Assembly: GCF_945956965.1 (NCBI RefSeq) | Contig: NZ_CAMFJS010000017.1 | Location: forward strand, 65,644 to 105,174 | Origin: an uncultured Roseateles sp. | Lineage (GTDB): Bacteria; Pseudomonadota; Gammaproteobacteria; Burkholderiales; Burkholderiaceae_C | Direction of reading: 5' to 3' | DNA length: 39,531 nt | Shown here: positions 8,906 through 32,928 of the stretch, piece by piece | Numbering within the stretch: position 1 is the stretch's first letter | Layout: each line of letters starts with the position of its first letter | Made by a program: the position numbers and the translations under genes | The notes under the pieces: generated by a model | The model's database searches: none | Seen by the model: only the letters and a program-made list of their open reading frames with translations | What the model was told of the DNA's origin: nothing

Positions 8906-9331
8906 CTAGCCGTAGGCTCCGCTCTGCATCCGAGCAACAACGACGGAGACCAGAGCTTGGCCATCAAAGGTGTCCATCAGTTCCATGGGGCGGAGCCAAC
9001 CTAGCGCCGGAACTGGGCGATTGAGCCAAGCGGCAGTCCACTCCGCCGCGTTGAATCCTGCAGCGTTCCCAGATTCCTCGACCATCACTTGCACTTGGCC
9101 GATCAGGCTACCAATTCCAAGCACTCGGGAGCTTTCTTCAATGGACAAGGGCTTGTTTTGGCGCACTTTGCGATTGACGGCGGCGCGTGACAGCCCAAGC
9201 ATCCTTACGAGGTGCGCCTCGGGAACTGCCATGCGCTTTGCAATGACGCGAACTGTCTTGGCGGACATGCCTTTCTTGACTAGCAAGACGCGATCAGCTG
9301 GCGCGGTCCGGAACATGTGCGCAAAGTTCAT
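8906..9331 (-). CDS. Orphan Xre/MbcA/ParS-family antitoxin
   Basis: The 141-residue product from the ATG at 9331 has a helix-turn-helix (about 22-75; LVRMLGLSRAAVNRKV and the ELSIEES-like LSIEESSRVLGI) followed by the toxin-binding domain formerly DUF2384. The end of that domain, AWLNRPVPALGWLRPMELMDT, matches the family pattern ALGG-TP-ELLDT. These proteins normally neutralise a RES-domain toxin encoded immediately downstream. Here downstream is 359 bp of unassigned sequence and then the hybrid kinase, so the toxin is missing. An upstream extension to 9409 is open but unlike the family. It may be a relic, or a stand-alone regulator or anti-toxin. Confidence 0.82.
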   Translation of the reverse strand: MNFAHMFRTAPADRVLLVKKGMSAKTVRVIAKRMAVPEAHLVRMLGLSRAAVNRKVRQNKPLSIEESSRVLGIGSLIGQVQVMVEESGNAAGFNAAEWTAAWLNRPVPALGWLRPMELMDTFDGQALVSVVVARMQSGAYG

Positions 9332-9837
9332 AGTTAGCACCCAAACGCCCACGGGTGAGGGCAGCAAGAAAGTGCAGGCGTAACGAGCAGCCAGCGCTGC
9401 TTGGATCAATCAATATACGCGACGGGGCCAGAACCTGCCAAGAATTCAAGCGGATGCCTTCAATCAGGCCGTTCAGCAGCGCCCCTGGTCGGACCAGGCT
9501 AAATTTTCCGGGGGCGGCCGTCATTGTCGGTGTGGACGCAAGGCCAGGTTCGTAGAGCCATGAGCAAAGGTAGAGGCTCTATGCCCAGTTGGCTGGTTCG
9601 ATCGTTTGACTACGAGGGCAAAGACCTGAAACAGGCGATCACACCTTGCTGGCAAATTGAGCGTGCGCCGCAGAGCACTGAAGTGAGATTTTTGATGAAG
9701 GCCAGTTTGCTGGGAATTGCAAATGAGGGAGCATTGAGGTTACACAATCTCAAACCAAATAGGCCCCAATAGGGACTCGACATGGCCAAGATCACGTCAA
9801 GACTCGGCATGGTCGACATAAGCTGGGAGGCTTAAAA
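9332..9837. other. Gene-poor stretch
   Basis: About 500 bp without a supported gene. A plus-strand frame at 9524-9772 (TTG start, 82 aa) has no recognisable domain, no good ribosome binding site and probably is not a gene. The stretch may be debris from the rearrangements suggested by the neighbouring MocR fragment and orphan antitoxin. Confidence 0.4.
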
Positions 9838-10773: not shown

Positions 10774-12711
10774 TCAGTTGATGGCCGAGCGCTTTTTCAG
10801 GGTGTCGAAGCTCAGGCCGCTGTTGGATTCACCCGTGCCGGTGGTCTTGGCGCGGCCAATCCAGAGGTGCGCGCGGCCATCCCAGGTGCGTGCGTACTGA
10901 AAGCTCCGGGTTACGATAACGCCCGCGCGTGGCACTTCTTCTTCCTTCACATCCAGGCTGTCGGCGCCCAGCGCTAGACCCTTTGCCTCGGGGTTGACCT
11001 TGAGCAGGCGCCCGCGCGGGTGCATCACGAACATCTGGATGCCGTTTTCCTGCGAGCCTTCTTCAATGAAGTCCTTTTGTTTGCCCAGCAGTTCGATGAA
11101 GGCCTGATAGTTCTTGTCGGCGAGCAGTTCGGGCGCCAGGGAGTAGAAGCGCGCCATGCCGCCACGCTGCAGCGTCACACTGAAGTTGTTGGCGCCGCCA
11201 TGGCCTTTTGGCACCAGGGGAATCCAGTTGGCAGGCACATGGGTGGCCAGGCGGTAGACGAGTTGCGGGTCGTTGGGCGCCTCGGGCAGGCGTTGCCTGA
11301 AGGCTAAGTGGTCGGCTTCGAGCTTGCGGTCGAGTGGCTCGCCGCTGCTGCCTTGCACCCGCCGCTCAATCCCCCAGGCGAGGTTGGCCATTTCGTCGCG
11401 CACCAGCAGCAGCTCTTCGAGCGGCGCGCCTTCGAGCGTGCCGGTCAGGGTGTCGGTCAGGCAGAGCGTGTCGCTGACCTCAGCCGCGACCTTGCCGCGC
11501 GTGGCCAGTTCGAACATGCGCCACGGCGAGGCGGGCGGTGGCAGGCGTGCGTGGTCAGAAGGCTGGATGCTCGCCGACACGCCAAAGGTGTCGCGCACCA
11601 CGAAGCCGCTGAGGTCGTAGAGCGCGCCCACAGGCAGGTCAATGGGCAGCATGAACCAGTCGTTGCCATAGGCGAGGCCAAACTCGGTCATCACCATGCG
11701 CACAATGCTCGATGGCGAAGCCTCGATGCCCGCAAAGTTGACGCGCGCGTCTTCAAACTCCCAATAGCGGTCGGCCGGCATGCCGGGGTAGCGCACGGGC
11801 ACAGGCAAGGTCTGGCGGATTTGAATCAGCGGTTCAGGCGCAGGATCGGCACGTGGCGGGCCTTCGCCTTCGGCCACGAAGCTGTGCCAATCGACGCGGC
11901 CATCGGTGTACTCGTCGGCGCGCAGGGCCACGTCTTGCGCACGGCCCTTGGCGTAAAGTGAGAATGCGTACTCAAAGCGCTGCGCGCGCCAGCTGGGGTT
12001 GTTGGCGGCGCCTTCCACCACTAAGGTATCCAGCCAGGCCAACCAGACGCCCAGCACTTTCAGTGCGGCAGCCTCTTCGCCCGCTGGCGACAGCGCAGGC
12101 GGCAAGGCCACGAGCTGGCCATCGACATCGCGCCCGGGCGCCAAGGCGGCGGCTACCTTGTGCGCGCTGATGCTGCGCCCAGCCAACAAGAGGTGCCACT
12201 GCTGCCCATGCACATCGCTTTGCGGGTCTTCGGGCGGTGGCAGTTCCAATTCAAAGGCGGGCGCGCGCAAGGCGGCCACCAGGCCGGGCAGGGCGCTTGC
12301 GCGGGCACGGCGCAGCAGGTTCAAGCCCGCTTCGCCGTCCAGCCTTGGGTGCACGGCCAGGGCGGGTTCGGCCTCAACGCGCACTTCCACGGGCAGGCCA
12401 CCCTCAATCAAGGCCTCGGCATCGGCCAGTGTCGCGTCTGGGCCTGCCGCGAAGCGGTCAATCGGTGAAGCGTTGACGTCGAGGTCGGCGCTGACCGGCG
12501 TGCCGGCGTCTTCGCCGCGCAGTTCGTTGAACTGCCACTGGCGGCCCATCAGCCAGAGTGGGTCGGCCAGCGGGGCGGACAGCCCGTCGTCGAGCTGGGG
12601 TGAGATGGGCGAGGCTTCAATCCGCGAAAAGCCGGTGATGCTCGGCTTGACTGGCGCGATGACGGCCTGCAGGTTCAGCGCGAAAGAATCTTTGGGCAGG
12701 TAGTAAAGCAT
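10774..12711 (-). CDS. Uncharacterised giant-operon protein D (645 aa)
   Basis: The ATG at 12711 has GAAGGAAG about 7 nt upstream; the frame stays open to 13074 but that part overlaps gene C and is a shadow. The protein has no signal peptide or membrane span. Recognisable segments are DPLWLMGRQWQFNELRGED near residue 50, NDWFMLPIDLPVGALYDLSG and FVVRDTFGV in the middle, RDEMANLAWGIERRVQG, and YRLATHVPANWIPLVPKGH toward the end. I have the impression of similar blocks (LWLLARQWQxGEFxGEDAGSP; NDWFxxPLxLPxGS) in unannotated proteins of other phyla, but I know of no assigned function. No catalytic signature is evident. It is the last gene of the four-gene block, 13 bp after gene C. Confidence 0.85.
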   Translation of the reverse strand: MLYYLPKDSFALNLQAVIAPVKPSITGFSRIEASPISPQLDDGLSAPLADPLWLMGRQWQFNELRGEDAGTPVSADLDVNASPIDRFAAGPDATLADAEALIEGGLPVEVRVEAEPALAVHPRLDGEAGLNLLRRARASALPGLVAALRAPAFELELPPPEDPQSDVHGQQWHLLLAGRSISAHKVAAALAPGRDVDGQLVALPPALSPAGEEAAALKVLGVWLAWLDTLVVEGAANNPSWRAQRFEYAFSLYAKGRAQDVALRADEYTDGRVDWHSFVAEGEGPPRADPAPEPLIQIRQTLPVPVRYPGMPADRYWEFEDARVNFAGIEASPSSIVRMVMTEFGLAYGNDWFMLPIDLPVGALYDLSGFVVRDTFGVSASIQPSDHARLPPPASPWRMFELATRGKVAAEVSDTLCLTDTLTGTLEGAPLEELLLVRDEMANLAWGIERRVQGSSGEPLDRKLEADHLAFRQRLPEAPNDPQLVYRLATHVPANWIPLVPKGHGGANNFSVTLQRGGMARFYSLAPELLADKNYQAFIELLGKQKDFIEEGSQENGIQMFVMHPRGRLLKVNPEAKGLALGADSLDVKEEEVPRAGVIVTRSFQYARTWDGRAHLWIGRAKTTGTGESNSGLSFDTLKKRSAIN

Positions 12712-12724
12712 GTGTAGGCTTCCT

Positions 12725-15700
12725 TCAGATCTTGCCCAGCGCCACCACGGCACCGCTTTGGCGTGCGAACTTGCTGGCCATCTGCCACAGCTCGACGCTG
12801 GGAATCTCGGCGCCAAAGTGCTGCGGCAGAAAGTTGCCGGGTAGCACGGCGCCGAGCCCATTGACGAGGTCTTTGGGCCGCACGCAGCGCAGTTGCGCGA
12901 GGTCGAAGGCCTCGTGCACGGTGGCCAGCACGTCGTCGAAGGTCCAGTGCGTCTGGCCCAGGCGCGGGGGGACAGCCAGCAGCACCGATTGCGGCGGACG
13001 GGCGCCCGGCGCGTCGTAGTGAAATGCCACAGCGGTGGTCTGGATGCGGTCGGGGATGACCTCCTGCCACTCATCGATCTGCAAGCCGGCCAGCGGGGTG
13101 TCGGCGCTCAGGCCCAGCAGCGCATCGGCGCCAGCAGCAACCACGGCCAACTGTGGCACGAGGTTTCGGATGCTCGGAGCTCTGCCATCGGGGCCAGGCG
13201 GCGGCACCCAGGCCTCAGGCCGCGCGGCCCAGGCCTTGCCACTCACATGGGGCAACTGCCACACGGCCAGGGTGTCGGCCAGGCTGTCTTCATGCAGGGC
13301 TTCGTGGGCGGTGAGGGCGGCATCTAGGCGGTCAGCCCCTTCGCGCACCCGCGCCAGCTTGGGCAGCCAGCCCGCCACCATGAAGGGATCACTGCCGATC
13401 AAGGCTGAACGGTCCGCAAGTGAAGCTGCCACTGAGTTGGAATATGGGCCGAGCGTGAAGGTGGTGAGCACCGGGAAGTGCTTGCCAAACACGAGCTTGA
13501 TGCGGTCGATAGCAATGCCGATTGATTCAGGCAACGTGGGCGCGCGCAACACAGGCGGTGGCGGTGGATCGGGCAAGGGCTCGGCTGCCGCCAGGGTTGG
13601 CAGCAGGCGCAAGGCGGCGGTCTGGCGTTCGGCGATTTCAAGCAACACGCGCTCTCGGCGTTGGAGGTGATCCTTGTGCCAGATGGCCAGGTGCTCGGTG
13701 TTGGCCCCTAAGGGCACAGGCTCGGGCTCGGCTTCGCGCAAACCGAAAGGCCAGCAGGCGCGCAAGGCGATGGTGATGGCCTCGTCGTCGGGCGCGGCTT
13801 GCAGCGCCACGCGGGCGTTTTCAAGCAGGCCCAATGCGGCTTCACCACGCGCCACGATCTCGGGGGCATCCACGCCGGCATATTCACCCGCACTGATCGC
13901 TTGCGCTTCTTCAATCTCGTCCTGGGGCACCACCAAGTCATGGCGGGTGAGTGAACGCACGCCCGCGATCAGTTCTCGCAAGGTGGTGGCCAGGGCTTCG
14001 AACTCGGCCAAACCGGGTGGCTCGCCCTCGCCATTGCGCTGCAGGATGTCTAGCCTCAAGCCTGGCTCAGCAGGTAGCGCACGTTCGAAGGCCTCGACCA
14101 GCCAGCGGCGCAACGGTGTGGTCATGGGGCCGCCATCGTCGGCTTGGGCGGCCACACCCAGCACCAATGAGAGCGCGCCGCGTTGCAGGTCGGTGGGCCT
14201 GAGCAGAACCTCGCCGTCCAGCGCATCATTGCGCACCTTCAGGGCCTTGAAGGCAAAACGGGAGGGGTCGCCCAGCTGTTGCGCGAGCCAGGCGTCCAGG
14301 CGCGGCTCGATCTGGCTGCGCGGGTCTTGGGCGGCGGCGGCCTGCCATGCTTCGAAGGCGTAGCCGCCCTGGCAAAGCAGCACCAATCGCTGGGCATAGG
14401 ACACGCCCGAGCGAGCCGTTTTCGTCACCTGCGGCGAGATCGGGGTCGCGTGGGCATCGAGCATGGCAGCGGCGGCAGCCGAGCGCTCCAGATTGTTTTG
14501 CGCGAGTTGGTAGACGCTCTCGGCCACCATCACGTCGCTCACCGCGTCCCAGGTCTGGGCCAACTCATTCAGCAGGGCCGTGACCATGGGCCCGTCGGGC
14601 GCTGCGACCGAGGCGAGCACCGTGGCCGCCGGGCCCACGCGCCAGGCATCAAGGAGGGCCAGGCCATCGACCACATCGCGCGCTGAAATGCTTTGCTTGG
14701 GCTCGGGGCCGAGGTCCTTGCTGTCCGGGCGCATGGGATAGCGCAGGCGGAAGTCGAGAATGTACTTGGCGCCGGCGAAGTCCTTGGTGTCGCGCAGCGC
14801 GCGCTCGAAGCGGTAGCCCAGCAAGGCGGCGGGGCTTTGGCCCCGCCCCACGCCTTCGATCAGGCCGCGCGCCTGTTGCACGCGGGCCGAGCTGAGGTCG
14901 ATGTTGAAGGCCTCGCCGCCGCGCTCCACATTGGCCAAAAAGCCGCTGCGCAGCATGGCCGCCGCCGCAGCCTGTGTGAGCGAAGGCGCGTGGGTGTAGC
15001 CCAGGCTGTCGCCTTGCGTGTCGCGGTGCAGGTCTTCCACAAAGCCATAGGCGCCAATGTGCAGGCCAGCCGCCTGCCCGGCTTTGGCTCGGCGCTCGCG
15101 CACGGCTTCAAGCCGCTTGCTGGCCAGGCCGGTGATCCAAGCGTCAAGCCGGTACGAGAAGGTGTCGAGCGTGAGGCGAAAGGCGGTGTCGAGTTGGCCC
15201 ACATTGAGTGGCGCCAAATAGAGAAGGCTGGCCTTGATGCTGCCGAGGTCGCGCCAGGTGAAGGGCAGCAACTCGCCGTATTGGCTGAACACCGACGCGA
15301 CCGAGTAGGCCGCCACAGCCTGATCGAATGCTGGCGCGGCCGCCACCGAGGCCGACAGGTGGGCCTCGACTGTAAGACTGCCGGTGACCGCTGGGATCTT
15401 TATGCTGGCCAACGCCCTTGAATTGGCTACTTCAAGGAAGGCGCTGGGCGCGCTGCTCGGCGCGATATTGACAAAGGCCGGCGTGGCGCGTGAGAGCGCC
15501 AGGCTGGTGTAGGACGCGGCATGGGTGCTGTTACGCAAGACCTGGTCGACGAGGCGAAAGCCGCTCTTGTCGAGCTCTTCTTCGGCAGAGAAGGCCAGCA
15601 TGGCTTCGAGCAGCGAGTCACCATTCTGATGCGTGGACAGCTGCGCCTTGGCTTGGTTGCCCTGGTCGAGTGCGCCGAGAATCTGCGCGATATAGGGTGG

Positions 15701-17566
15701 GTCGAGGGGTTCGGAGGGCGCGCGTGGATTCTTCTTATCCGCGGGGGCGGCCTGCACCCAGGGCACATAGCCCAGGTCGTGCGCCTGCACATCATGCACC
15801 ACCGTTTCAATCTGCAGCTGAACGGTTTGTTGAATGCCAAAGGCTTTGAGAAGGTTGAACACGATGGGCGACTTGGCGCTCGTTTGTACCTGGCCGTATT
15901 GGTCGGAGATGCCGCTGAGCTTGACCGCCATGTTCGGGTTCTCCATATTGCGGAACTGGCTCGTCACCGACCAGGGCCCGCTCTGGATGAGTTCGCGCAC
16001 GTCGGCCAACTGGCCGCCATCCACCCGCGGCACGGTGCCCAGGGCCTGGCGCCATGAGGGCCGCAAATGGCTCAGCACTTTGGCAACGCCGATTTCGGCT
16101 TCGCCCTCAGGCACAAAGTTCGCAGTCACCGGCAGCACCCCGTAAGGTTGCTTGCCAATGCGCAACAGCGGCAGCGGTCCGCCCGGGCGCACCCAAGCCA
16201 CGGCGAACTGCCGCGCCACGTTGATGGCGCGGTCGGTCACATACTCGGTGTTCACAATGGGCACGTTCCACAATTCGTCGAGGTAGCGCCCGAAGGTGCC
16301 GCGCCACAGCGCATTGATCATGTGCATTTGCGTGCGCTGCTCGGCCAGTTCGGCGCCGGGCACCATGGTGGGCAGCAAGGCCTGGCCCTTGAGGCCCAGG
16401 GCGTGCTGCAGCAAGTCGTAGGCGTCTGTCGAGCCCGAGGCGGGCACGGGCTGCTCATCGGTGGGCAAGGGCGGCACCACGCCGCTATTGAGTGCCGAGG
16501 CGCCACGGCCCGTGTTATTGGTGGCCGTGCCCAGTGGCAAGAAGGCCATGCCGTTGCTTTGGGCATGGGCTTCAAGCAGGTCTTCAAGCGCATCGGCGCC
16601 GGAAGATGCGTCCAGCGTCCAGTCCACACCGAGCACCACGAGGCGCTCCAAGGGTGAGCCGAAGGCAAAGGGCTGCGGGTCATGGCGCTCGGCGAGCCGC
16701 TTGCGCACATGGTCGTGCGTGACCTGAATGGCCATGCCAGCCTCGATGGCGGCGTTGAAGTCGAACATCCAGGCGCGCTCCTTCCCGAACAGGGCGCCCT
16801 GCGCTTCGTCTTTCTTGGCGAGCGCGGGGTCCAGCTCAGGGCTCATCGGCAAGATGTCGGGCACATTGCGGTCGGCCCAGACGCGAAACACCTCACGCCG
16901 CCCGGCCGCATAGCCCACGGCGCAGAAGCGGTCGGGCAGCAGCATCGCGTAGGTCTGGCGCGACAGCGCGCTGACGGCCTGCACCTCGTCGGGGTTGGCG
17001 GGGTCGGTGGCCCGCACCACGAACTGTGCACGCGCAGCGCGGTAGGCGGCCACCATGCGTCGCCACACGGCCTCTTCGCCGCCTTCGCCTTGCGCTACCG
17101 CAGCCCAATATTCCAGGCCTGCACGGCGCTCGGGTTCGGTGAGGCCGCGCACATGGCGCATCACATGAATGGTGTCAGGATAGATGCGGATCGCCAGGCG
17201 CTGGCCGGCGTCGAGGTAGCGGGTTTCGATTCGCAAGGGCAGCAGGGCAATGGGCACCTCGCCTTCGAGCGCTTGCACCATGTCGGCCAGATCGCCGTTG
17301 CCCAGCAGGCGGTCTGATTGGGTGCGGATGGCGTCGATGAGCTGCTGGCGCCCGCCATGGGCCACTTTGAGTGCGGCATCACTGGCGACGGCCGCTGCTT
17401 TCAGCGCGTCAACGCGGTGTGCGGCATCCCCCTGCGCCAGGGCCTGTGCCAGTTGGGCACGGTGGAGCGCCGCCTCAACCCGCGCGGCTTCGATCTGACT
17501 TTGGGTGCCGGCCAGGGCCTTGCGCAATTCAGTAATGGGGCCACGGTCGATGGGCAGCAAGGGCAT
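12725..17566 (-). CDS. Uncharacterised giant-operon protein C (1613 aa)
   Basis: Starts at the ATG at 17566 with GGAG 6 nt upstream. The first about 80 residues are helical and Ala/Gln-rich, probably coiled coil. Then come blocks with a conserved look: LLPLRIETRYLDAG and IYPDTIHVMRHVRGLTE (about 105-145), LLPDRFCAVGYAAGRRE, NGMAFLPLGTATNNT, and LLRIGKQPYGVLPVT (about 470). The C-terminal half is Ala/Leu-rich and mostly helical with scattered WD/LD motifs. No signal peptide, transmembrane segment, nucleotide-binding loop or protease triad is visible. The combination of PVRxETR, GTPTNNT and QPYGxLPV-like motifs recalls unannotated actinobacterial and myxobacterial proteins, an impression that needs a profile search. 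Thirty-six base pairs separate it from gene B. Confidence 0.85.
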   Translation of the reverse strand: MPLLPIDRGPITELRKALAGTQSQIEAARVEAALHRAQLAQALAQGDAAHRVDALKAAAVASDAALKVAHGGRQQLIDAIRTQSDRLLGNGDLADMVQALEGEVPIALLPLRIETRYLDAGQRLAIRIYPDTIHVMRHVRGLTEPERRAGLEYWAAVAQGEGGEEAVWRRMVAAYRAARAQFVVRATDPANPDEVQAVSALSRQTYAMLLPDRFCAVGYAAGRREVFRVWADRNVPDILPMSPELDPALAKKDEAQGALFGKERAWMFDFNAAIEAGMAIQVTHDHVRKRLAERHDPQPFAFGSPLERLVVLGVDWTLDASSGADALEDLLEAHAQSNGMAFLPLGTATNNTGRGASALNSGVVPPLPTDEQPVPASGSTDAYDLLQHALGLKGQALLPTMVPGAELAEQRTQMHMINALWRGTFGRYLDELWNVPIVNTEYVTDRAINVARQFAVAWVRPGGPLPLLRIGKQPYGVLPVTANFVPEGEAEIGVAKVLSHLRPSWRQALGTVPRVDGGQLADVRELIQSGPWSVTSQFRNMENPNMAVKLSGISDQYGQVQTSAKSPIVFNLLKAFGIQQTVQLQIETVVHDVQAHDLGYVPWVQAAPADKKNPRAPSEPLDPPYIAQILGALDQGNQAKAQLSTHQNGDSLLEAMLAFSAEEELDKSGFRLVDQVLRNSTHAASYTSLALSRATPAFVNIAPSSAPSAFLEVANSRALASIKIPAVTGSLTVEAHLSASVAAAPAFDQAVAAYSVASVFSQYGELLPFTWRDLGSIKASLLYLAPLNVGQLDTAFRLTLDTFSYRLDAWITGLASKRLEAVRERRAKAGQAAGLHIGAYGFVEDLHRDTQGDSLGYTHAPSLTQAAAAAMLRSGFLANVERGGEAFNIDLSSARVQQARGLIEGVGRGQSPAALLGYRFERALRDTKDFAGAKYILDFRLRYPMRPDSKDLGPEPKQSISARDVVDGLALLDAWRVGPAATVLASVAAPDGPMVTALLNELAQTWDAVSDVMVAESVYQLAQNNLERSAAAAAMLDAHATPISPQVTKTARSGVSYAQRLVLLCQGGYAFEAWQAAAAQDPRSQIEPRLDAWLAQQLGDPSRFAFKALKVRNDALDGEVLLRPTDLQRGALSLVLGVAAQADDGGPMTTPLRRWLVEAFERALPAEPGLRLDILQRNGEGEPPGLAEFEALATTLRELIAGVRSLTRHDLVVPQDEIEEAQAISAGEYAGVDAPEIVARGEAALGLLENARVALQAAPDDEAITIALRACWPFGLREAEPEPVPLGANTEHLAIWHKDHLQRRERVLLEIAERQTAALRLLPTLAAAEPLPDPPPPPVLRAPTLPESIGIAIDRIKLVFGKHFPVLTTFTLGPYSNSVAASLADRSALIGSDPFMVAGWLPKLARVREGADRLDAALTAHEALHEDSLADTLAVWQLPHVSGKAWAARPEAWVPPPGPDGRAPSIRNLVPQLAVVAAGADALLGLSADTPLAGLQIDEWQEVIPDRIQTTAVAFHYDAPGARPPQSVLLAVPPRLGQTHWTFDDVLATVHEAFDLAQLRCVRPKDLVNGLGAVLPGNFLPQHFGAEIPSVELWQMASKFARQSGAVVALGKI

Positions 17567-17602
17567 GGGGATCTCCGATTTCTGGGGCTGGTGAGGCTGC
17601 GT

Positions 17603-20600
17603 TCAGGGCATCAGGTCCGTGCCGATGAAATACGCGCGGAAGGGCCGCTGCAACAGCGCCTGCGCCACTTGCGCGGCGTGTGCTGCCGGCGGCAGCGCGC
17701 TCAACCAGTGAGGCTTGGGCGGCACGGGCGTGACCAGATGGCTCAGGCGCAAGAAGGGCCGCGCCAAGTCAGGCGGCATCACCTGATCCCAGTTGACGTC
17801 CTTCCAGCCCTTGGGGCCATCAGAAGGCGTGGCACGCGTGCGTTCAGGCGCATCAAAGCCAAAGCGTGGCTCGGTCATTTGCTCTTCGAGCACAAAGCAC
17901 CACTTGGCCACTTCTGCCTTGGCCGCCGCGGGATCATCGATAGGGATGTCAAAGCCCACGTAAACCAGATCTGGCGAGAGCGGGCCTGCAAACACGGGCC
18001 GCTTGATGATCATGGCCAACTCGGCGGGCAGGCTGATGCCGGGCTCGGCCACCGTGAAGTCACTGGGGGCCGCCAGCTTGTTGGTGTCGGGCTTGCGACG
18101 CTGCGCGTAAATGGTGAGGTTGGGGTAGCGTTTGATCAGGCTGGCGCGGATCACGAGCACCAGCTTGTCGCCGGCCGGCCCGCCGCTGGGCGGGGGCTGC
18201 TTGCCCAGGGCCTTAAGCGGGTTCCACAGATGCAGCTCGTTGATGTCGGGCTGGTCATCGAGGCGATCCCAGAAGTGGCGCATGGGCGTGCCGCGCTGGT
18301 CGGTCGGAAAGCCTCGCCACAACAACTCTCGCGCCATTTCCTGGTTGACGCCCACCATGAACGATTCAACGAAACGGTTGTTGGTGCGGGCCAGCACCAG
18401 GAAGTCGTTGGGGATGGCGTTGGCGCCCGGCATCATCGACTCTGTATCCATGCGTGCCAGCCGGATGCTCATGGGCTCTTCGAGCTTGGGGTAGGCCATC
18501 ACGCGGTCGAACAGGCGCGAGACGATGAAGCGCACATCGGTGAACAAGGCGGCGCTTGGCAGGGAGAAAGACAGGAAGGGGCTGCTCAAGGTGCGCGTGA
18601 CGGCATCAAAAGCCAGGGCGCTACCGCCAATCGACAAGGTGGCGGCCAGCCGTGCGGGCACTGTCAGTTCGGGGTCGGTGCGACGGCGCATATTGGCGGC
18701 CACGGCCGCGATCGGGAAGTCCACCGGCTTAACGCTCACACCTGCCACATCGAGTGGCGAAAACCACAAAACGTTGTAGGCCTTGAGCGCCTCGCCAAAG
18801 CGCGACAAGGTCGTTTTATCGCGCAGCGGCGCTGGCAGGGTGATGGTGGTCACATCGGGCACGCCGGCAGCACCCTGGCCGCTGAAGAGGCCCGCCAATG
18901 AGGAGCCCACTTTCGATGAAATGGCCACTGGCCCGACATCAGCCAGTTGCCGCGCCGGCAACGTATTCACAGGCAGCGAGGCAAACACCGCGCTGTTGCC
19001 GAATTGGCCCACTTGCTGCCGCACCACTTTGGCGAAGGTAGTGCGCGGCAGCTCATCGCCACGCTGGGCCAGGGTCTGCATGGCGCCGGTGCGGCCGTCA
19101 ATGCGCAGTGGCGTGATGGCGGCTTCGGCCAAGCCTTCGTTTCGATCTTGCTGCGTGTTCAAGGCCATCAAGAGGCCTTCGCTAGTTCTAACGCCAGGCG
19201 TGCGTTGCACCTGACGTGCGAGGCCGGAGATCGACAACGGTGTGCCCGCATTGGTCGCCACAGCGAGTTGTGAGAAGCGAATGAAATGTTGCTCGGTCAG
19301 CAGCCCTTGCTCCCGCTGTGGCTTGAGCTTGGGCCGCCACGCCTTGCCTTCGCCGGCAGACTTGGTGTACCAGGCCCGCGCTGCGGCGCCCTGGTTCTGC
19401 AAGGCTTGCAAGGCATCGGCTCGGATCTCGCCGCTCAAGCCCATGGGCGAAAGGTCGACCATGGCGGCAGGGTTCCCGGGAACGACCAGCTTGTCGAAGC
19501 TCTTGCTGCCGAGAATGCCGTCGGGAACGTAGCGATTGGGGTCGATGGCATGCGGGTTCAGGCTGGCCTTGGCCAAGCTATTGACCATGCCCGCCACCTG
19601 TGTGGCGACGGACACGCCGGCCCCGCCCGCCACGCGCCGCACCGCTGCCTTGAGCAGGGGGCGTTGCGCGCTGGTGAGCCGGCGCAGGGCCGGATCGGCA
19701 ATCGCATTGGGCACGCTGGTGTTCCGGATGCGCGCCAGCACCGTTTCATCAGCACCCAGGCGGATGCGCGAAGCAGCCGGGCCTGCAATGGCCAAAAAGC
19801 GGTCATCGGGCAGTCGCTTGAGCTTGTCGTGCAGCACGCGCTGCACTTGCTTGGCCAGGGCCGCGCGAGCCAGGGCGCGTTCGGTGCGCAGCACCTCACC
19901 GACCTGGCCCCAGCTTGCGTCCATGAATGCCTCTTGGTTGGCTCGTACAAGCTCGGTGCCTTTGCCCGCTGCGGCACGAAAGCGGGGGTCGCGGTTCAAG
20001 TCATTGAGCCAGCGGCCCTTGGTGGCGTCGATCACATGCTGGCGCGCATGCCAAGCGCCGTAAATGGGCGGCGCCACCGTGGGCGCGCGCTCGGCAGCGG
20101 CTGCATTGACAAGCTGGGTCTGCGGCGCGTTCACGATGGTCTGCAAGCGGCTAGCCACGTCGTTGCCGGCACTTGCTGCGCTTGAGAAGGTCACCGAGGT
20201 GAGGGCGCCTTCATACAGCTGAGTCACCGGCTGTGCATCCACCGTCAGCAGGCGGTCGCCATCAATCGACATGGGCACCGTGCCCAGGGTTTGCAGCCTG
20301 GCCTTGATCTCGTCGCGTTGTTCGGGGCTGAAGGCGCTGTCTGGTCCATCCAGGTCTCTGGGGGTGTTGATGCGCCGTGCCAGTGCCTCGAAGTCGCCTT
20401 CAGGGCCGGTAGAAAATTCCCAATGAAAGTACACCGGCAGCACCACGTCGCCCGCAAAGGGCGCCGTCCATGCAGGATGCAGTTGCAAGGGCGCATCGGG
20501 GGCATCAGTGAGAGGGAGATCCAGGCCACGCCTGCGGCCCACTTCGAAGGCAGGCACGAGGCAGGCAAAGTAGTTGCGCGAGGGCTTGAGGCGGCGCGGG

Positions 20601-21181
20601 CTCAACAACCGCGACACATTGCGCTCGGGCTTTTGCATCAGCTCGGCTTCCAGTTGCGCCTCCGTGGCTACGGTGGATGCCGTCTGCGCATGCGCCCACA
20701 TCCATGATTCATCGAGATCAGGCAACTCCTCGCTGGCCACGGCCATGGGCACTGTCACGCGCGGCAGCGGTGCGCCGGGCGTCATACTGGGCAGCCGCAC
20801 ATGGGCGAGGTCGAATACCACGAGCACTAGCCACGGCCGCAAGCGTTGTGCCTGGGCTTGGGCTGGCGTGAACATCCATGGGAAGTCGGGCGGGTCGAAA
20901 TCAATCAGCGCCAGGTAGTTGGGCTCGAAAGCCGTGACATGGGGCTTGGGGTCAGTGCGCAGGATCAGACGGGTATCGATGCCCACCACATCGCAGGGGC
21001 CAAACAGGCGCAGGCCGACCTGGCCAGTCACGGGCGCAGTGGCCTGGCCATCCTGATCGGCGGCAATGGTGAGCCCAAGATTGATGGCTGGGCGCGCCGC
21101 AATGCCCAGCGCATCGGGCGTGGTGATGGCGCGCACGAGGCCACGGCGTGCCCAGGGAACGAAGCGGTAGTCAATGGACAT
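17603..21181 (-). CDS. Uncharacterised giant-operon protein B (1192 aa)
   Basis: Starts at the ATG at 21181 with GAGGAAG upstream, 12 bp after gene A. The N-terminal 150 residues look beta-rich and contain FEPNYLALIDFDPPDFPWMF followed by RLRPWLVLVVFDL. The C-terminal third carries NRFVESFMVGVNQEMA, ARELLWRGFPTDQRGTP, LVLVIRASLIKRYPNLTIYA, and near the end CFVLEEQMTEPRFGFDAP. These segments look conserved and recall unannotated bacterial proteins (ELLWREYPTDQRG; LLRRYPxxxVYA; EPRFGLD), without a function I can name. A long central region (about 350-750) is Ala-rich and helical. No export signal or enzyme motif is seen. A structural or scaffold role is possible, given size and lack of catalytic residues, but unproven. 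Confidence 0.85.
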   Translation of the reverse strand: MSIDYRFVPWARRGLVRAITTPDALGIAARPAINLGLTIAADQDGQATAPVTGQVGLRLFGPCDVVGIDTRLILRTDPKPHVTAFEPNYLALIDFDPPDFPWMFTPAQAQAQRLRPWLVLVVFDLAHVRLPSMTPGAPLPRVTVPMAVASEELPDLDESWMWAHAQTASTVATEAQLEAELMQKPERNVSRLLSPRRLKPSRNYFACLVPAFEVGRRRGLDLPLTDAPDAPLQLHPAWTAPFAGDVVLPVYFHWEFSTGPEGDFEALARRINTPRDLDGPDSAFSPEQRDEIKARLQTLGTVPMSIDGDRLLTVDAQPVTQLYEGALTSVTFSSAASAGNDVASRLQTIVNAPQTQLVNAAAAERAPTVAPPIYGAWHARQHVIDATKGRWLNDLNRDPRFRAAAGKGTELVRANQEAFMDASWGQVGEVLRTERALARAALAKQVQRVLHDKLKRLPDDRFLAIAGPAASRIRLGADETVLARIRNTSVPNAIADPALRRLTSAQRPLLKAAVRRVAGGAGVSVATQVAGMVNSLAKASLNPHAIDPNRYVPDGILGSKSFDKLVVPGNPAAMVDLSPMGLSGEIRADALQALQNQGAAARAWYTKSAGEGKAWRPKLKPQREQGLLTEQHFIRFSQLAVATNAGTPLSISGLARQVQRTPGVRTSEGLLMALNTQQDRNEGLAEAAITPLRIDGRTGAMQTLAQRGDELPRTTFAKVVRQQVGQFGNSAVFASLPVNTLPARQLADVGPVAISSKVGSSLAGLFSGQGAAGVPDVTTITLPAPLRDKTTLSRFGEALKAYNVLWFSPLDVAGVSVKPVDFPIAAVAANMRRRTDPELTVPARLAATLSIGGSALAFDAVTRTLSSPFLSFSLPSAALFTDVRFIVSRLFDRVMAYPKLEEPMSIRLARMDTESMMPGANAIPNDFLVLARTNNRFVESFMVGVNQEMARELLWRGFPTDQRGTPMRHFWDRLDDQPDINELHLWNPLKALGKQPPPSGGPAGDKLVLVIRASLIKRYPNLTIYAQRRKPDTNKLAAPSDFTVAEPGISLPAELAMIIKRPVFAGPLSPDLVYVGFDIPIDDPAAAKAEVAKWCFVLEEQMTEPRFGFDAPERTRATPSDGPKGWKDVNWDQVMPPDLARPFLRLSHLVTPVPPKPHWLSALPPAAHAAQVAQALLQRPFRAYFIGTDLMP

Positions 21182-21193
21182 GGTGTGGCTTCC

Positions 21194-24100
21194 TCAGATC
21201 AACGCTTCGAACATTTCAGCCACCTGGAAGTCGGTCCCGTCCAATATGGCGGCCTGGGCTTTGGCATTGAAATAGGTGCTGCTGGCCGCGCCGGCCACGG
21301 GCTTTGCACTGTTGCGCCCAGTCACATGAAAGCCCGGGTTCGCCACCTCAGCCTTGGCCAACACCCTGGGTTGCAGGCGCTGGCGCAGATCGCTGCGTGC
21401 CGCGGCACCAAAGGCAACCACCCAGCGCGTGTCGTCCAGCAAGCCCAGGTGAGAGACGCTGACGATGCCCGGCTCAGGGGTTGACAGGTTGACCTCTTCG
21501 AAGTCAAAAGTCTCGCTCACCATTTCGCCGGTGTCGAAGCTGTCTACCGCCAGGGTGACGCCGGCGTCGTATTGCTCAAACGAGGGGCCTTGCAGGCGAT
21601 CGCCTTCACTCACATCAAAGAACTGCGCGGCCGCGAAGTGATCCTTGACGCTGCTGGCCGGGAAACCGCCCGTGCCATCGGGCAGCACGAGCGCAGGCAC
21701 GCCAAAGCGGTTCGCGTTGAGTGGCCGCTTGGTGCCCAAGCGCTTGAGCGGCGCGCCCAGCGGGATGTACTTTTGGCGGAAGGTCAGCGGGCTGCGCGGG
21801 TGCGCCAGCAGGCCGGTGTTGCCCTCCACTTTGGCCAGCGTCACCAAGGCATCTTCTGCGCGAGGCAACTGCGCCGACCAGTTCTCGACCTTGGCAATCG
21901 TGTTTTTCAGCTCGGCCGCCACATCTTCGGTCGGACGGGGCGTGTCGGGAACGCTGCCCCAGCGTTCGTCGAAATCAACGCTGTGCTCGCCGAAGAAGCC
22001 GAGGTCCACCGTGGCCAGACCGGCTGCTCGCCAACTGCCCGGCCCACTCAGCAGGCCTTCGATGCGAGCACCAAGGGTGAAGCCCAGTATGTTGAGCTTG
22101 GCCCAGATGCGCATATCCGCTTCAAAGTAAAAGCGCGGCTCCAGGTAGACGATGACGTCGTAGCCAAAGCCACCTTCGAAGCTGGCTATGCCCACATCGG
22201 CCCACACACGCAACTCTGAGCCCGCCTGCACGGTGGCCGAGGTGATGGCGAAATAGCCCTCAAACTTGACCCCCACAATGCCAATTGAAAAGCCCGCGCC
22301 AATGCGGTCCATGGCGGGCACGTCTTCGGGGATGTCCTTGAAGCGTGGGTGAAACCCGCCGGCGCTGAGCAAAAAGCTTGGCTTTGCGCCAAAGCTTGCG
22401 CGAAAAGCAAAGCTGCCGGTGAGGGTGATGAAAAGCACACGGGAGTCGCGCAGCTTGCCGTCCAGGCCCAGCTTGAAGGGATCGAAATAGATGTAACCCA
22501 CCACATCGATCTGCAAGCGCAGGATCGCAAGCTCCTTACTCACCAATGGCGGCAGCTGAACGATGGCCTGCCCGACGATGCTGAGCTTAGAGGTCTCGAT
22601 CAAGACGCCGATACGGACGGTGACCAGGCTGGGCGTGCCCCAGCCCACTTCGAGCATGGGCCCGATGATGAAGCCACCGGGTTTGGTGGCGAACAGGGTG
22701 CGCAGGGTGTTGATGATCTGCGGCGCATCGCCCACCGGGTTGGCCGGAAACAGTATGGCGTCGAGCGCGCCGCTCGCCATGCCTTTGGCGAGCGCATCGG
22801 TGCTGGTGGTGTGCTGCAGGCCAATCAGGCCGCCCAAGCCGGTCAGCGTGAAGCCAAACGAGAGCTGGATCGCGGGGAAGTTGCCAAAGATCAGCAGCAA
22901 GAGCGACCAGCCCGCATCGGGCATCTTGGTGTTGAGGATGGCAATGGCCTTGATGCCAATGGCCATCATCTTGAGCTCCAGCACCCCGGCGTACTCGCCT
23001 TTGGCCGCGTCGAGGTAGATGTAGCCGCCCCCCTTGACCACGCCTGCATCCAGCGACAGGCCCATGCCATTGGGTGGCTTGATGCCAAACTCTACGGCGG
23101 GGTTGCCATCGAACAGGTCGCGTAGCTTGAGCGACACGCCCAGCCGGTCGACCGAGCCCTTGAACGGCCCCAGTTCGATGGCAAACGAGGCCGATAGCTC
23201 CGCGTCGATGTTGGCAAACTGCCCATTGAGAGGCTCAATGCCCAAGTGAATGAGCTGCAGATTGAGTGGCCCGCTCGGGATCTTGGGCACCGGCAGCGAG
23301 ACCCGCAGCCCCGTGCCGTCCTGCAGATGCAGCTTGCCCTTGGCGTCGATCTGCGCGGCGAGGCCAAAGTCAACCGTCACATCACCGGACAAGACTTCCT
23401 TGAGGAGCCCGTCCTGGATGCTGAGCTTGATCGCGCCTTCACGCAAGAACACATCGAAGCGCGGCTCAATGGACTTACCTGCGGACTTGACGGCCAACTG
23501 AATGGCCGCGCCGATCTCCTTGAGTGTGAGCTCGGCAGAGCCGAAGCTGCCCAGCGCTAAAGGCCCCAATTTGAGCGCGAAGCCTTCGGTCTGTTTTTTG
23601 GACAGCTCCAGGCTGATAGATGGATCTGTGCCCTCAACTTTGGCAGCTCCCGGCGGTAGCAAAGGCTGATAGACCTTGAGTGCAGCACTGCCCTTAAGCT
23701 TGATCTTGGCCGGCCCGGCGCTGGCCGTGGCGTTGAGGTTGAGCGCGGCATCGAACTGTGCGCCGGCGTTCACGGGCGGATCGGCCACCAGCAACATGGT
23801 CAGCCTGGCCGGGCCTGCCGCGTCGCCAAAGGCCACGCTCACAGGCCCCAGGGCGCCGGCCGGTACGGCGGCCGCCATGCTCTGCGCGGTCCAGCCGAAG
23901 CCTGGTGCGTCCAGCGCCTTGGCAAAGCTCTTGTCGATCAAGGCCCCCATGAGCGCTGTGAACAAGCCCAGCGCCGAGGCGGCATCATCAATCTGGGCTT
24001 GCGTGGGCGCGCCGCCAGCGGGCACCTTGGTGCTGCGCGCGACGAAATCTGCAAGTTGCTGGGCGTGCGACTGTCCGGCGGCGATGTTGGCGCGTGCATC

Positions 24101-24565
24101 ACCCGACATCGTGAGGAGCAATTTGGCCAAGCCAAAGGCACTGGGGTAACGCGCCGCAGCATCCACGCCTTGGACGATGCTGCTGAGCTGCTTGACCACC
24201 TTGCCGACCACGACAAAGACCTGCTGCCTGGCGGCCGTGCTCATGACGCCGTCGGCGACTGCTTTGACGGCATCAACCGCCGCCTTGATGGTGTCGAGCG
24301 CCACCAGAAACTCAGAGGCGATCAGCGCCGCAAGCGCGATGCCCTCAGCCGCCGCGCCGCCGCCTTGAAAATCTTCCAAAGTGATGGCGCTGCCGGCAGG
24401 TGGGGGGCTGTTGGCATTGATGCGGCCTAACAACTGCCACAGCAGGGCCTCGGCACGGGCCTTGTCAGCTGCAATCGGCCAGGGCGTGGCGTTCAGCGCG
24501 TGAGAAACGGCCTCACGAAACCACTCATAGCTCTGCACAAATACCGGATCGGGCTGAGTCGCCAT
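21194..24565 (-). CDS. DUF6603-like giant-operon protein A (1123 aa)
   Basis: First gene of the block. Residues 1-250 are helical and Ala-rich, with a hydrophobic but not signal-like start. Residues about 270-900 are a long run of alternating amphipathic beta strands. That part contains LGGLIGLQHT, a LDAILFPANP segment, FIIGPMLEVGWGTPSLVT, AGGFHPRFKDIP and EGLLSGPGSWRAAGLATVDL, then DFDERWGS. This order (GGxxGL, ILFPxxP, GPxxxxxWGTP, GGFHPxF, LxGPxPWxxxG, DFDxxWG) is the pattern I associate with DUF6603, a widespread family without assigned function. The last 200 residues form a separate tail. There is no Sec or lipoprotein signal, so the beta-rich body is either cytoplasmic or exported by another route. 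The ribosome binding site is weak (AAGG). Confidence 0.85.
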   Translation of the reverse strand: MATQPDPVFVQSYEWFREAVSHALNATPWPIAADKARAEALLWQLLGRINANSPPPAGSAITLEDFQGGGAAAEGIALAALIASEFLVALDTIKAAVDAVKAVADGVMSTAARQQVFVVVGKVVKQLSSIVQGVDAAARYPSAFGLAKLLLTMSGDARANIAAGQSHAQQLADFVARSTKVPAGGAPTQAQIDDAASALGLFTALMGALIDKSFAKALDAPGFGWTAQSMAAAVPAGALGPVSVAFGDAAGPARLTMLLVADPPVNAGAQFDAALNLNATASAGPAKIKLKGSAALKVYQPLLPPGAAKVEGTDPSISLELSKKQTEGFALKLGPLALGSFGSAELTLKEIGAAIQLAVKSAGKSIEPRFDVFLREGAIKLSIQDGLLKEVLSGDVTVDFGLAAQIDAKGKLHLQDGTGLRVSLPVPKIPSGPLNLQLIHLGIEPLNGQFANIDAELSASFAIELGPFKGSVDRLGVSLKLRDLFDGNPAVEFGIKPPNGMGLSLDAGVVKGGGYIYLDAAKGEYAGVLELKMMAIGIKAIAILNTKMPDAGWSLLLLIFGNFPAIQLSFGFTLTGLGGLIGLQHTTSTDALAKGMASGALDAILFPANPVGDAPQIINTLRTLFATKPGGFIIGPMLEVGWGTPSLVTVRIGVLIETSKLSIVGQAIVQLPPLVSKELAILRLQIDVVGYIYFDPFKLGLDGKLRDSRVLFITLTGSFAFRASFGAKPSFLLSAGGFHPRFKDIPEDVPAMDRIGAGFSIGIVGVKFEGYFAITSATVQAGSELRVWADVGIASFEGGFGYDVIVYLEPRFYFEADMRIWAKLNILGFTLGARIEGLLSGPGSWRAAGLATVDLGFFGEHSVDFDERWGSVPDTPRPTEDVAAELKNTIAKVENWSAQLPRAEDALVTLAKVEGNTGLLAHPRSPLTFRQKYIPLGAPLKRLGTKRPLNANRFGVPALVLPDGTGGFPASSVKDHFAAAQFFDVSEGDRLQGPSFEQYDAGVTLAVDSFDTGEMVSETFDFEEVNLSTPEPGIVSVSHLGLLDDTRWVVAFGAAARSDLRQRLQPRVLAKAEVANPGFHVTGRNSAKPVAGAASSTYFNAKAQAAILDGTDFQVAEMFEALI

Positions 24566-24643
24566 GGGCGTGCCTTTGCGTAGCTACCGCTCTGGCGCCG
24601 GTCTCCATGCAAGTCGAGACGGGTCAGCGCATTCCCGAAGAGA

Positions 24644-24686
24644 AGCAGGTTCGCGGTAGACCTGCTCCAGCGCATGCTAGGTGCCG
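24644..24686 (-). promoter_or_regulatory. Possible sigma-54-like promoter and dyad before the giant operon
   Basis: Read on the minus strand, 24686-24672 is CGGCACC-TAGC-ATGC, against the sigma-54 consensus TGGCACG-N4-TTGC. It keeps the GG and GC pairs at correct spacing but matches only 8 of 11 defined bases. It would start RNA near 24660, about 95 nt before gene A. A dyad AGCAGGT-N9-ACCTGCT spans 24644-24666 over that start. In GC-rich DNA such matches arise by chance, so this is weak. Confidence 0.3.
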
Positions 24687-24751
24687 GGTGGGGGTGGACC
24701 TATCCCTAACTTCTTGTGAAAGTGCCATCGTGCTTTCCTTGATGGCGCAAG

Positions 24752-26227
24752 CTAAGTGCGCCCCGTCTGCTCGGCCTGAGGGGAGTTGCCAAAGCTCAAG
24801 ATGGCGGTACAACCCCGTGCCATGCCTTCCGACCCATCGCGCCGTGCTTGCAAGATCAGGCTGCCTTGATGAGCCTCGGCAATCTGGCGCGACAGCAGCA
24901 GGCCGATGCCGGTGCCATCCGGCTTGGTGCTGTAGAAGGGCACAAACAAGTTGTCCGGGTTGGCCAGACCCGTGCCCTGGTCCAGCACCGTCAGGCGCAG
25001 CGGTTGCAAATGGCAGCGCAGTTCCAGTGGCGCGCCGTCGGCCTCAATACCGTTCTTCAGCAGATTGATCAGCAACTGCTCGATCTGTACCGGGTCACCA
25101 AAAAACGGGATCTCAAGTTCGGGCGGCAGCGAGGCGGCCTGCGGGGCTTCGTCTGCGGGAGAGTTGTTGGCTTCCAGGCTGAGCTGTAGGCGAGCCTGAG
25201 GCAGCATGGTGGGCAAGCGGCGCAGCAAGCCCGACAGGTCGAAGACGCGCTTGTGTGGTTCGGGCAAACGGGCCAACTGCGCATAGCGGCGCACAAACTC
25301 GGCCAAATGGATGGCCCGCTCATGGATCAGGCTCAGGCCTTCGTCCAGGTCCGCCAGCTCTTCCTCATGGCGGGCATCCACCTGCTTGCTGTGCATCGAG
25401 GCCAGGCTTTTGCGCAAGGTGTCGCTGAGGCTGGAGATGGGCACTAGCGAGTTATTGACCTCGTGGCTGAGCACCCGCAACAAGCGGCGCCAGGCTTGCA
25501 TTTCCTCACCGCGCAGCACCTGCTTCAGATCGGTGACGAAGAGCAGCGTGTGTTCGCGGCCCCCTATGGCACCTTCTGCGGCACCTTCCACGGCATAGTG
25601 CTGCCGGCGCAGCTGCCACAGGCCGGCTGCACCCGGAAACACATGTTGGCTGAGCTGCCCGGTGTCGGCGCTCAGCAGTTCGGCCAAACCGAGGTCTGCG
25701 GCCGAACGGCCGATGACGGCGGAGCCGGGCTGGCCCAGCAGGCTGAGTGCGCAAGGGTTGGCCAGTTGCAAGTGGCCCTGCGCATCAAAGGCGAAGATTG
25801 CGACATCAATGCCTTGCATCACGCTGTCCGCCAGACTCATCGCTTCTTTGGCCTGCAGGCGCTGGCGATGCAGGCCGTCGACCAGCTGATTGATTTGCAG
25901 ACCCAATAGATCATCAGGCCCGGCCCGTCGCAAGCGGTGGCTGTAGTCGCCGCCAGCAATGCCCTCGACCAGGTTGCCGATGGTCTGCAGGTGAAATTCG
26001 GCCCGCTTATAGATCGCTCGCGCGGCGCCTAGCCAGGCCAGGCTCAAGAGCAAGCAGAGCAGCAGCTTGGGGTAGATCAGCCAGTTCTGTTGCCAGACCC
26101 AGAAATTGGCGGCAAGCATGGCGGGCGCGCCACCGGCCAAGGCCAGCAAGCCCATTTGCCCGGCAAAACCGAAATGATGCGGGCGTGGGGCCGGCGCGTG
26201 ATTCGGTCGAGATGAGCGGTGCTTCAC
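24752..26227 (-). CDS. NtrY-like membrane sensor histidine kinase
   Basis: The 491-residue kinase starts at a GTG at 26227 whose last bases overlap the TGA of the activator gene (GTGA), so translation is coupled. The longer open frame upstream (to 26476) is a shadow. Two transmembrane helices (about 23-42 and 50-72) with almost no periplasmic loop lead into a HAMP-like linker and a PAS-like domain (about 130-235). The phospho-acceptor region is VLSHEVNNSLVPI with His255. The N box is INLLKNGIEA (about 387-396), followed by LDQGTGL and GTGIGLLLSRQIAEAHQG. The SHEVNNSL form is typical of NtrB/NtrY-like kinases that serve sigma-54 activators. A cytoplasmic or membrane-derived signal is likely. 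Confidence 0.92.
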   Translation of the reverse strand: MKHRSSRPNHAPAPRPHHFGFAGQMGLLALAGGAPAMLAANFWVWQQNWLIYPKLLLCLLLSLAWLGAARAIYKRAEFHLQTIGNLVEGIAGGDYSHRLRRAGPDDLLGLQINQLVDGLHRQRLQAKEAMSLADSVMQGIDVAIFAFDAQGHLQLANPCALSLLGQPGSAVIGRSAADLGLAELLSADTGQLSQHVFPGAAGLWQLRRQHYAVEGAAEGAIGGREHTLLFVTDLKQVLRGEEMQAWRRLLRVLSHEVNNSLVPISSLSDTLRKSLASMHSKQVDARHEEELADLDEGLSLIHERAIHLAEFVRRYAQLARLPEPHKRVFDLSGLLRRLPTMLPQARLQLSLEANNSPADEAPQAASLPPELEIPFFGDPVQIEQLLINLLKNGIEADGAPLELRCHLQPLRLTVLDQGTGLANPDNLFVPFYSTKPDGTGIGLLLSRQIAEAHQGSLILQARRDGSEGMARGCTAILSFGNSPQAEQTGRT

Positions 26228-27633: not shown

Positions 27634-27673
27634 CGACGCTGGCTAGTCATGGCCCGGCCATTCTCGCCCAGGC

Positions 27674-30136: not shown

Positions 30137-30921
30137 CACAGGGTCTCCGCCAGTGTGGCCGCTGCTACTGCAGCTTGCGAGGCGCTGGGGCGGGGGTGGA
30201 TGGCCGAAGTCGGCAGGTCAGCGACCACGCGGCCGTCGAACAAGGCCACAGTGCGCTGGGCCAGCGCGGCATAGCGCGGGTCGTGGGTGACCATGCACAA
30301 GGTGGCACCCTTGGCATGCACGCTTTGCAGCAGCTCCATCACCAGCTCGGCATTGCGGGAATCGAGGTTGCCGGTCGGCTCATCGGCCAGGATCAAGCTG
30401 GGTTGGCCGACTAGTGCGCGAGCGATGGCCACGCGCTGCTGTTGGCCGCCCGAGAGCTGCGCCGGGTAGTGGCGCGCACGGTGCGCCATGTCCACATGGT
30501 CCAAGACTTCGGCGACGCGCTCGCGGCGCTCGGCACGGCTCATTTCTGAGCGGTAGCTCAGCGGCAGGGCGACGTTGTCTTCGACCGTCAGGTCGCCGAT
30601 CAGATTAAAAGCTTGAAAGACGAAACCGATCTGGCGGTTGCGTAGCAGGGCGCGGGCGCGGCTGTCGAGTTGTTCGACGCGCTGGCCGTTCAGCAAATAG
30701 TGGCCTGCGCTGGGGCTGTCCAGCAGGCCGAGGATGGCCAGCAGGCTGGACTTGCCGCAGCCCGAGGGGCCGCTGACGGCGAGGAACTCGCCGCTGCGAA
30801 TCTCCAGGCTGACCTCGTCCAGCGCGCGAGTTTCCAGCTCGTCGCTCAGAAAGCTTTTTTTGATGCCTTGCAGGCGAATCAAGGGCTGCTCCGGCGTCGG
30901 GATAGGGCTCATCGTTGTCAT
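30136..30921 (-). CDS. ABC transporter ATP-binding protein (LolD/MacB type)
   Basis: The 261-residue ATPase has Walker [10 protein letters not shown], a Q-loop in [18 protein letters not shown], signature LSGGQQQR, Walker [13 protein letters not shown] and the H-loop VTHDPR. The QxFNLI and EPTGNLD features are those of the MacB/LolD subfamily, which powers permeases of the FtsX fold. The start is one of two ATGs, 30921 or 30912. The frame extends to 31158 but that section overlaps the adaptor gene. It lies 70 bp after the adaptor stop and its stop overlaps the permease start, a standard co-translated pair. Confidence 0.93.
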
Positions 30922-30991
30922 GGCGGGGCTCTTTTCTCGTGGCGATAAATGTAGGGCTGAAACTTGAGGCGCTGGGGTAGGGGAGACGGCC

Positions 30992-32266: not shown

Positions 32267-32279
32267 GCTGGGAATGAAC

Positions 32280-32294
32280 GCAGGATGCGTGCCA
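32280..32294 (-). promoter_or_regulatory. Sigma-54 promoter of the exporter operon
   Basis: Read on the minus strand from 32294 to 32280 the sequence is TGGCACG-CATC-CTGC. The -24 element is a perfect TGGCACG, and the -12 element matches TTGC at three of four bases, with the invariant GC at the correct distance. Transcription should start near 32268. The operon encodes a sigma-54 activator, which supports the call. Confidence 0.75.
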
Positions 32295-32363
32295 GTCCCT
32301 TCCAAGCATGGCATCGGCCTAAGTGCTTGATTTGATGGCCGCCGGAGCCCGGCATCGGCCTTG

Positions 32364-32920: not shown

Positions 32921-32928
32921 TGACGCAT

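Follow-up and report, generated by a model that had tools for sequence, protein, structure and literature searches.

A horizontally moving four-gene cassette of giant proteins, one of them a DUF6603 member, in bacteria and haloarchaea

The four genes and their products

The window analyzed here is a stretch of 39,531 nucleotides from an uncultured Roseateles sp., and its minus strand carries four large, closely packed genes that we call A (21194..24565, 1,123 amino acids), B (17603..21181, 1,192 amino acids), C (12725..17566, 1,613 amino acids), and D (10774..12711, 645 amino acids). Sizes, common strand, and gaps (12 bp between A and B, 36 bp between B and C, and 13 bp between C and D) are as given in the initial annotation of the sequence, and the good ribosome binding sites that it placed on the last three genes are present as Shine-Dalgarno-like GAGGAA before B, GGAGA before C, and AAGGAA before D; A is preceded only by a weak AAAGG. 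A 186-bp spacer (24566..24751, minus strand) separates A from a histidine kinase gene upstream. No consensus promoter was found in this spacer, and both a promoter of the cassette's own within it and cotranscription with the upstream two-component genes are possible.

The same cassette is found in two Rubrivivax assemblies (72 to 78% identity for A, B, and D, and 68% over the best segment of C), which allowed substitutions per codon to be counted at positions 1/2/3: 0.18/0.12/0.42 for A, 0.20/0.15/0.43 for B, 0.24/0.18/0.44 for C, and 0.18/0.12/0.41 for D. Since the third position changes most in all four (1.8 to 3.5 times more often than either other position), A to D are real genes. Their codon usage and their GC content at third positions are typical of their own genome, and a foreign codon usage was rejected.

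A is a member of DUF6603 (Pfam PF20248; residues 431 to 987, E = 2.2e-113, 379.9 bits against a curated cut-off of 27), a family without known function; a literature search for the word "DUF6603" found no paper. All four proteins had initially been taken as uncharacterized, which holds for B, C, and D, none of which belongs to a named family, but A is not entirely family-less because it contains DUF6603. Matches of B, C, and D in Pfam, NCBIfam, and PHROGs were chance-like only: Pfam returned nothing for B and D and one match for C (E = 0.77), and the best PHROGs match of any of the four, that of B, had an E value of 0.19. The anti-phage models of PADLOC had no match to A to D at E ≤ 1, and profile searches against the PDB were empty for A, B, and D and gave two chance-like matches to unrelated enzymes for C (E = 0.029 and 0.4). 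The profile searches proposed in the initial annotation thus revealed no known enzyme, phage protein, or injection-system protein among the four. Judging by the literature search and the family libraries, A to D do not appear to have been described before.

From its Pfam match, its periodicity, and its relatives, A can be divided into an N-terminal region (residues ~1 to 235) that is helical by periodicity, an amphipathic-beta core that includes the DUF6603 region, and a C-terminal tail. B has residues that are invariant among its relatives. The segments QPYGVLPV and GRQWQ, which had looked conserved from the window's sequence, do lie in conserved stretches, the former in C and the latter (GRQWQ...GEDAGTP) in D, whose alignment of 10 sequences has 38 invariant columns. 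There is no strong transmembrane segment in A to D (Kyte-Doolittle peaks of 1.7 to 1.9 in A and D and none above 1.6 in B and C), and Pfam finds no nucleoside triphosphatase or protease domain in them, in agreement with the earlier impression that transmembrane helices, nucleotide-binding loops, and protease motifs are lacking.

A also shows amphipathic-beta periodicity. Scored by the best 300-residue stretch, A has a share of 0.78, the highest when set against 166 open reading frames (ORFs) from 380 kb of its own genome; TamB, which was added on purpose, comes next at 0.77, and 50 shuffled versions of A gave a mean of 0.57 and a maximum of 0.67. On the same scale, the seven tested relatives of A, or of its counterpart A' in the second cassette type described below, would rank first or second (second for two haloarchaeal and two actinobacterial A proteins), while D ranks 3rd, B 4th, and C 77th. 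This amphipathic-beta nature is a weak hint at lipid handling.

The cassette is conserved and moves horizontally

A to D constitute a conserved, horizontally moving four-gene cassette with no sequence kin in the families searched other than DUF6603. In a tblastn search of 72,556 plasmid records (E values up to 1e-5), A and D each matched 15 records and B and C 13 each; all four genes are present together in one and the same set of 13 records, representing 11 species (three records are from Streptomyces longwoodensis). Two Embleya records gave a match to A and none to B to D, and the one that was retrieved carries the second cassette type; D was matched alone in S. anthocyanicus and Natrinema caseinilyticum. 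Carriers of the cassette include Streptomyces, Nocardia, Rhizobium, Paraburkholderia, Gemmatirosa, and haloarchaea; Pseudomonadota, Actinomycetota, and Gemmatimonadota are among the host phyla. The co-occurrence of the four families across phyla, which the initial annotation had proposed to look for, was therefore found in bacteria and archaea alike, and the order of the genes is preserved across these phyla and both domains.

A megaplasmid of Natrinema gelatinilyticum holds two complete cassettes (L100, positions 1074-21969, and L040) whose upstream genes differ. In S. anthocyanicus, the orphan D (L035, 17944-19749) has no A to C nearby and adjoins a convergent alpha/beta hydrolase gene.

Our final table comprises 35 loci: 21 with a type I A (the window included), 12 of type II, L039, and the orphan-D locus L035. 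The order A-B-C-D on one strand holds at 17 of the 21 type I loci, counting one in which A is cut by the end of the record (L008) and two with genes split into two ORFs (B and C at L007 and B at L010). Two others, G562 and G1272, are truncated within C by the edge of their contig. At L006, the order A-B-C is present, A and C being split into two ORFs each, and a further C and a D lie elsewhere on the same plasmid (L039). The last, G988, has B-C-D, then two other genes, then A; of the two intervening genes (L092, joined coordinates 21279-26128), one had by eye a pre-toxin-like end and the other a nuclease-like stretch, readings that searches did not support. Searches that started from B, C, or D supplied some of the loci. 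A less biased subset is formed by the six whole-genome type I loci found by DUF6603 alone (the window, G671, G562, G988, G1341, and G1272), where B and C are present in six of six and D in all four that are not cut by a contig edge. The counts exclude G559 (DUF6603 below the cut-off and no match to our profiles), G167 (the same score as G214), records that were matched only (the second Embleya, two more S. longwoodensis plasmids, and N. caseinilyticum), and matches to the type II protein B' in Streptomyces sp. NBC_01276 and Paenibacillus sonchi.

The type II cassette has A', B', and C' in order at its 12 loci, with D' at 6 of them, and the A' reading frames reach 3,518 amino acids. Profile comparison connects A with A' (probability 99.9 over 504 columns) and the N-terminal part of B with B' (probability 98.4, E = 8.2e-15, 149 columns) and finds no similarity between C and D and their counterparts C' and D'. 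Because only A and B are common to both types, these two probably represent an older core, and the other parts are probably type-specific. A co-linear resemblance between the C-terminal half of B and the small third protein of type II was not significant (hhalign probability 1.5) and was discarded. At type II locus L030, the A' gene (from 13062 onward) includes what by eye is an alpha/beta-hydrolase-like stretch with a degenerate nucleophile elbow; Pfam was empty for the scanned part of this A', which ends before most of DUF6603.

DUF6603 was found in 1 of 18 genomes of the same genus, 6 of 399 of the same order (5 above the cut-off), 6 of 350 of the same class, 3 of 357 of another class, and 9 of 397 Pseudomonadota genomes, in samples that overlap and mostly contain the genome of the window itself. 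D was found in 1 of the 397 Pseudomonadota genomes, namely, this one.

Over 14 loci, the four proteins have pairwise distances that correlate at 0.93 to 0.98 (0.65 to 0.90 without L002 and L003), values that none of 2000 permutations reached. L011, from Paraburkholderia, and L038, from Nocardia, represent two phyla and group as sisters in each of the four trees (support of 0.999, 1.0, 1.0, and 1.0); the cassette appears to have traveled whole at least in this case. Placements elsewhere disagree among the four trees, that of the Rhizobium locus L007 for example, and some are well supported; because they conflict, exchange of single genes is also possible.

Neighboring genes and proposed function

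A hydrolase or possible toxin-like gene neighbors the cassette at 11 of the 21 type I loci (L002, L004, L006, L009, L010, L011, L036, L038, L100, G671, and G1341), a plain count without background comparison, from a scan that covered part of the neighbors rather than all of them at every locus. Before A, there is a PhoD-like protein at L004 (Pfam E = 2.3e-10), with relatives by similarity at L009 and G1341; a family whose members have a very hydrophobic segment, at L036, L100, and L006; and a trypsin-like protein at L011 (over the cut-off, one gene away from A) and at L010 (below the Pfam cut-off). After D, there is an alpha/beta hydrolase (abhydrolase) at L002, whose first Met lies ~50 bp past D; a caspase at G671, whose first Met lies ~20 bp past D and which is followed by papain-like, astacin-like, and amidase (Amidase_2) genes; and a subtilase at L038. 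Also after D are WD40 at L005 and pentapeptide repeats at L037. Extra domains also occur within the core proteins: Pfam places a lamin tail in D of L004 and FG-GAP in B of L009, where a peptidoglycan-binding (PG-binding) domain is also found beside the cassette, and a "BGTF surface domain" is given by annotation only for C of L004 and L036. Among the type II loci whose neighbors were scanned with Pfam (G070, L041, and G214), a metallo-beta-lactamase fold lies upstream of A' at L041 and G214.

The reading we favor, with confidence short of even, is that A to D are the core of an assembly that uses exchangeable, effector-like accessory proteins in microbial conflict. We infer from the sequences that the four proteins would build one physical, multi-subunit complex, and its assembly, release, and target are inferred in the same way. 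A would form an extended amphipathic-beta body, groove- or tube-like, and B would be its constant partner, kept in both cassette types, with C and D as type-specific parts; B, C, and D could bear extra surface-type domains. Such a complex would carry, process, or present exchangeable effectors encoded before A or after D, the candidates being the PhoD-like phosphoesterase, the possible pore-former, and the trypsin-like, subtilase, caspase, papain-like, and alpha/beta hydrolase proteins, and it would be released without a Sec or Tat signal, perhaps by lysis. A toxin- or effector-platform-like role between microbes would follow from a complex of this kind. PMC3482391 offers a parallel, describing caspase-like, papain-like, and subtilisin-type peptidases as processing enzymes of polymorphic toxin systems.

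Several known systems resemble this proposed platform in part. Insecticidal Tc toxin complexes are not known to need a classical signal peptide. Like the proposed platform, they consist of a few very large proteins (TcA, TcB, and TcC) from adjacent genes with a variable toxic part, according to PMC7861908; A to D, however, have no Tc domain (Pfam) and no RHS domain, only C has PDB matches, the chance-like ones above, and the cassette has four core parts and is present in haloarchaea. Polymorphic toxin systems and their delivery routes, among them the Photorhabdus virulence cassettes and extracellular contractile injection systems (PVC/eCIS), combine a constant core with exchangeable hydrolase or toxin genes, proteases included, as the proposed platform would, and PVC-type systems also occur in haloarchaea (both from PMC3482391), but A to D have no trafficking domains (Pfam), a sheath does not consistently accompany the cassette, and the candidate effectors are separate genes where those of polymorphic toxins are C-terminal tips.

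A number of points weigh against the effector-platform reading. No effector was recognized beside the cassette at 10 of the 21 type I loci, this window included; hydrolases are common genes, and the neighboring ones might be passengers. The call at L009 rests solely on similarity to L004, the gene touching A at L011 has no Pfam match, the trypsin-like call at L010 stays under the cut-off, and L006 was assigned to the hydrophobic family at an E value of 2e-4. The best PDB profile match of this family, the colicin A pore domain, is suggestive only, its E value of 0.018 not being significant alone when compared with the chance-like 0.029 of the C profile. The likeness of the family to pore-forming effectors of type VI secretion systems (T6SS), for which PMC12909789 provides precedent, was drawn by eye only. 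No immunity gene was noticed near the cassette, although no search was aimed at immunity genes; no secretion signal was seen by eye in A to D, and no lysis gene was identified. Finally, AlphaFold gave no usable model from three sequences each of A (mean predicted local distance difference test score [pLDDT], 28.1) and of B residues 1 to 340 (mean pLDDT, 37.5), the inputs coming from the window, L002, and L003 and not from distant relatives. Models of such low pLDDT match meaninglessly and were therefore not used in fold searches, and because structure prediction gave no usable model, a known fold beneath sequence detection may hide in A to D, a caveat on their novelty.

A broader claim, which we hold more tentatively, is that A to D are the core of an undescribed class of giant machine, common to bacteria and haloarchaea, whose task is to carry or activate interchangeable effectors (pore-former, phosphoesterase, protease, or lipase). 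The machine would be neither phage-derived nor kin to known secretion or toxin systems, and its type II lineage would have retained A and B alone and acquired different partners. It is unusual for over 4,500 residues to be conserved and to move as a unit across phyla of bacteria and archaea with one DUF as the sole described family. Were the effector-platform reading true, the cassette would be a new route of microbial antagonism that extends to archaea, a domain with few classical polymorphic toxin systems according to PMC3482391; were it not, the cassette would still encode a large conserved machine of unassigned role.

Of the alternatives, an intracellular immune or cell-death scaffold, in which the giant proteins would detect invasion and switch on an adjacent protease or hydrolase, is unlikely but survives best. 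The caspase, papain-like, trypsin-like, metallo-beta-lactamase, and abhydrolase neighbors would suit it, as would the patchy, mobile distribution, the lack of a secretion signal by eye, and the repeated acquisition of trypsin-like proteases by antiviral systems that PMC12799240 reports. Against it stand the empty PADLOC search, the absence from A to D of a nucleotide-binding switch (Pfam), and the Amidase_2, PG-binding, lamin-tail, and FG-GAP domains, all of which point outward.

We consider it somewhat less probable that A carries lipids or other hydrophobic molecules along a bridge-like beta groove, aided by a lipase or phosphoesterase. The long amphipathic-beta periodicity that A shares with AsmA/TamB bridge-like proteins, at about the level of TamB itself, is consistent with such a conduit, as are the abhydrolase and PhoD-like neighbors. 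A shows no homology to TamB, however (hhalign probability of 0.4 against the TamB profile and no AsmA/TamB match in Pfam), it lacks a strong membrane segment, its phyletic range is different and includes organisms with one membrane, and a conduit leaves the protease neighbors unexplained.

Lower still we place a multi-enzyme or scaffold complex that breaks down polymers outside the cell. Exchangeable hydrolases and the lamin-tail and FG-GAP domains would fit, and D' of type II looks beta-propeller-like by eye, although one D' had no match in either Pfam or the PDB; but Pfam finds no carbohydrate-active or dockerin domain in A to D or the scanned neighbors, a caspase is a misfit, and four conserved giant parts go far beyond what a scaffold needs.

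That A to D are parts of a phage tail, virion, or contractile injection system is very improbable and largely refuted: one cassette-bearing record labeled "Bacteriophage sp." and a sheath-like protein in the window's own genome speak for it, but the former is unverified and alone among 50,697 phage records, five scans through 2.9 million viral contigs, with two to six short peptide patterns each, came back empty, PHROGs gave only the chance-like match of B, and a T6SS sheath occurs in 0 of 6 carrier genomes and a phage-type sheath in 1 of 6, which rejects either as a constant partner of the cassette. That one genome is the window's own, where the sheath-like protein (L101, 6787-8730, on contig 3 and not the cassette contig) scores 29.9 bits, just under the cut-off of 31.4, and possibly belongs to a contractile injection system or a prophage.

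Surroundings of the cassette

Upstream of A and on the same strand, positions 24752-32314 of the window encode an HlyD-type protein, an ATP-binding cassette (ABC) ATPase, a MacB/FtsX permease, a sigma-54 response regulator, and the histidine kinase. A sigma-54 regulator also adjoins the cassette in G562, and a related regulator gene is found in L003. Downstream of D lies an antitoxin gene of the Xre/MbcA/ParS type (8906-9409) for which no toxin partner was recognized. Farther upstream, a HipA-like kinase gene and a small gene with a weak helix-turn-helix match below the cut-off (34531-36103) are perhaps a HipBA-type pair. Between these and the HlyD-type group, positions 32920-34083 encode an M14 peptidase whose N-terminal domain is of the cytosolic-carboxypeptidase type; such proteins are better known from eukaryotes.

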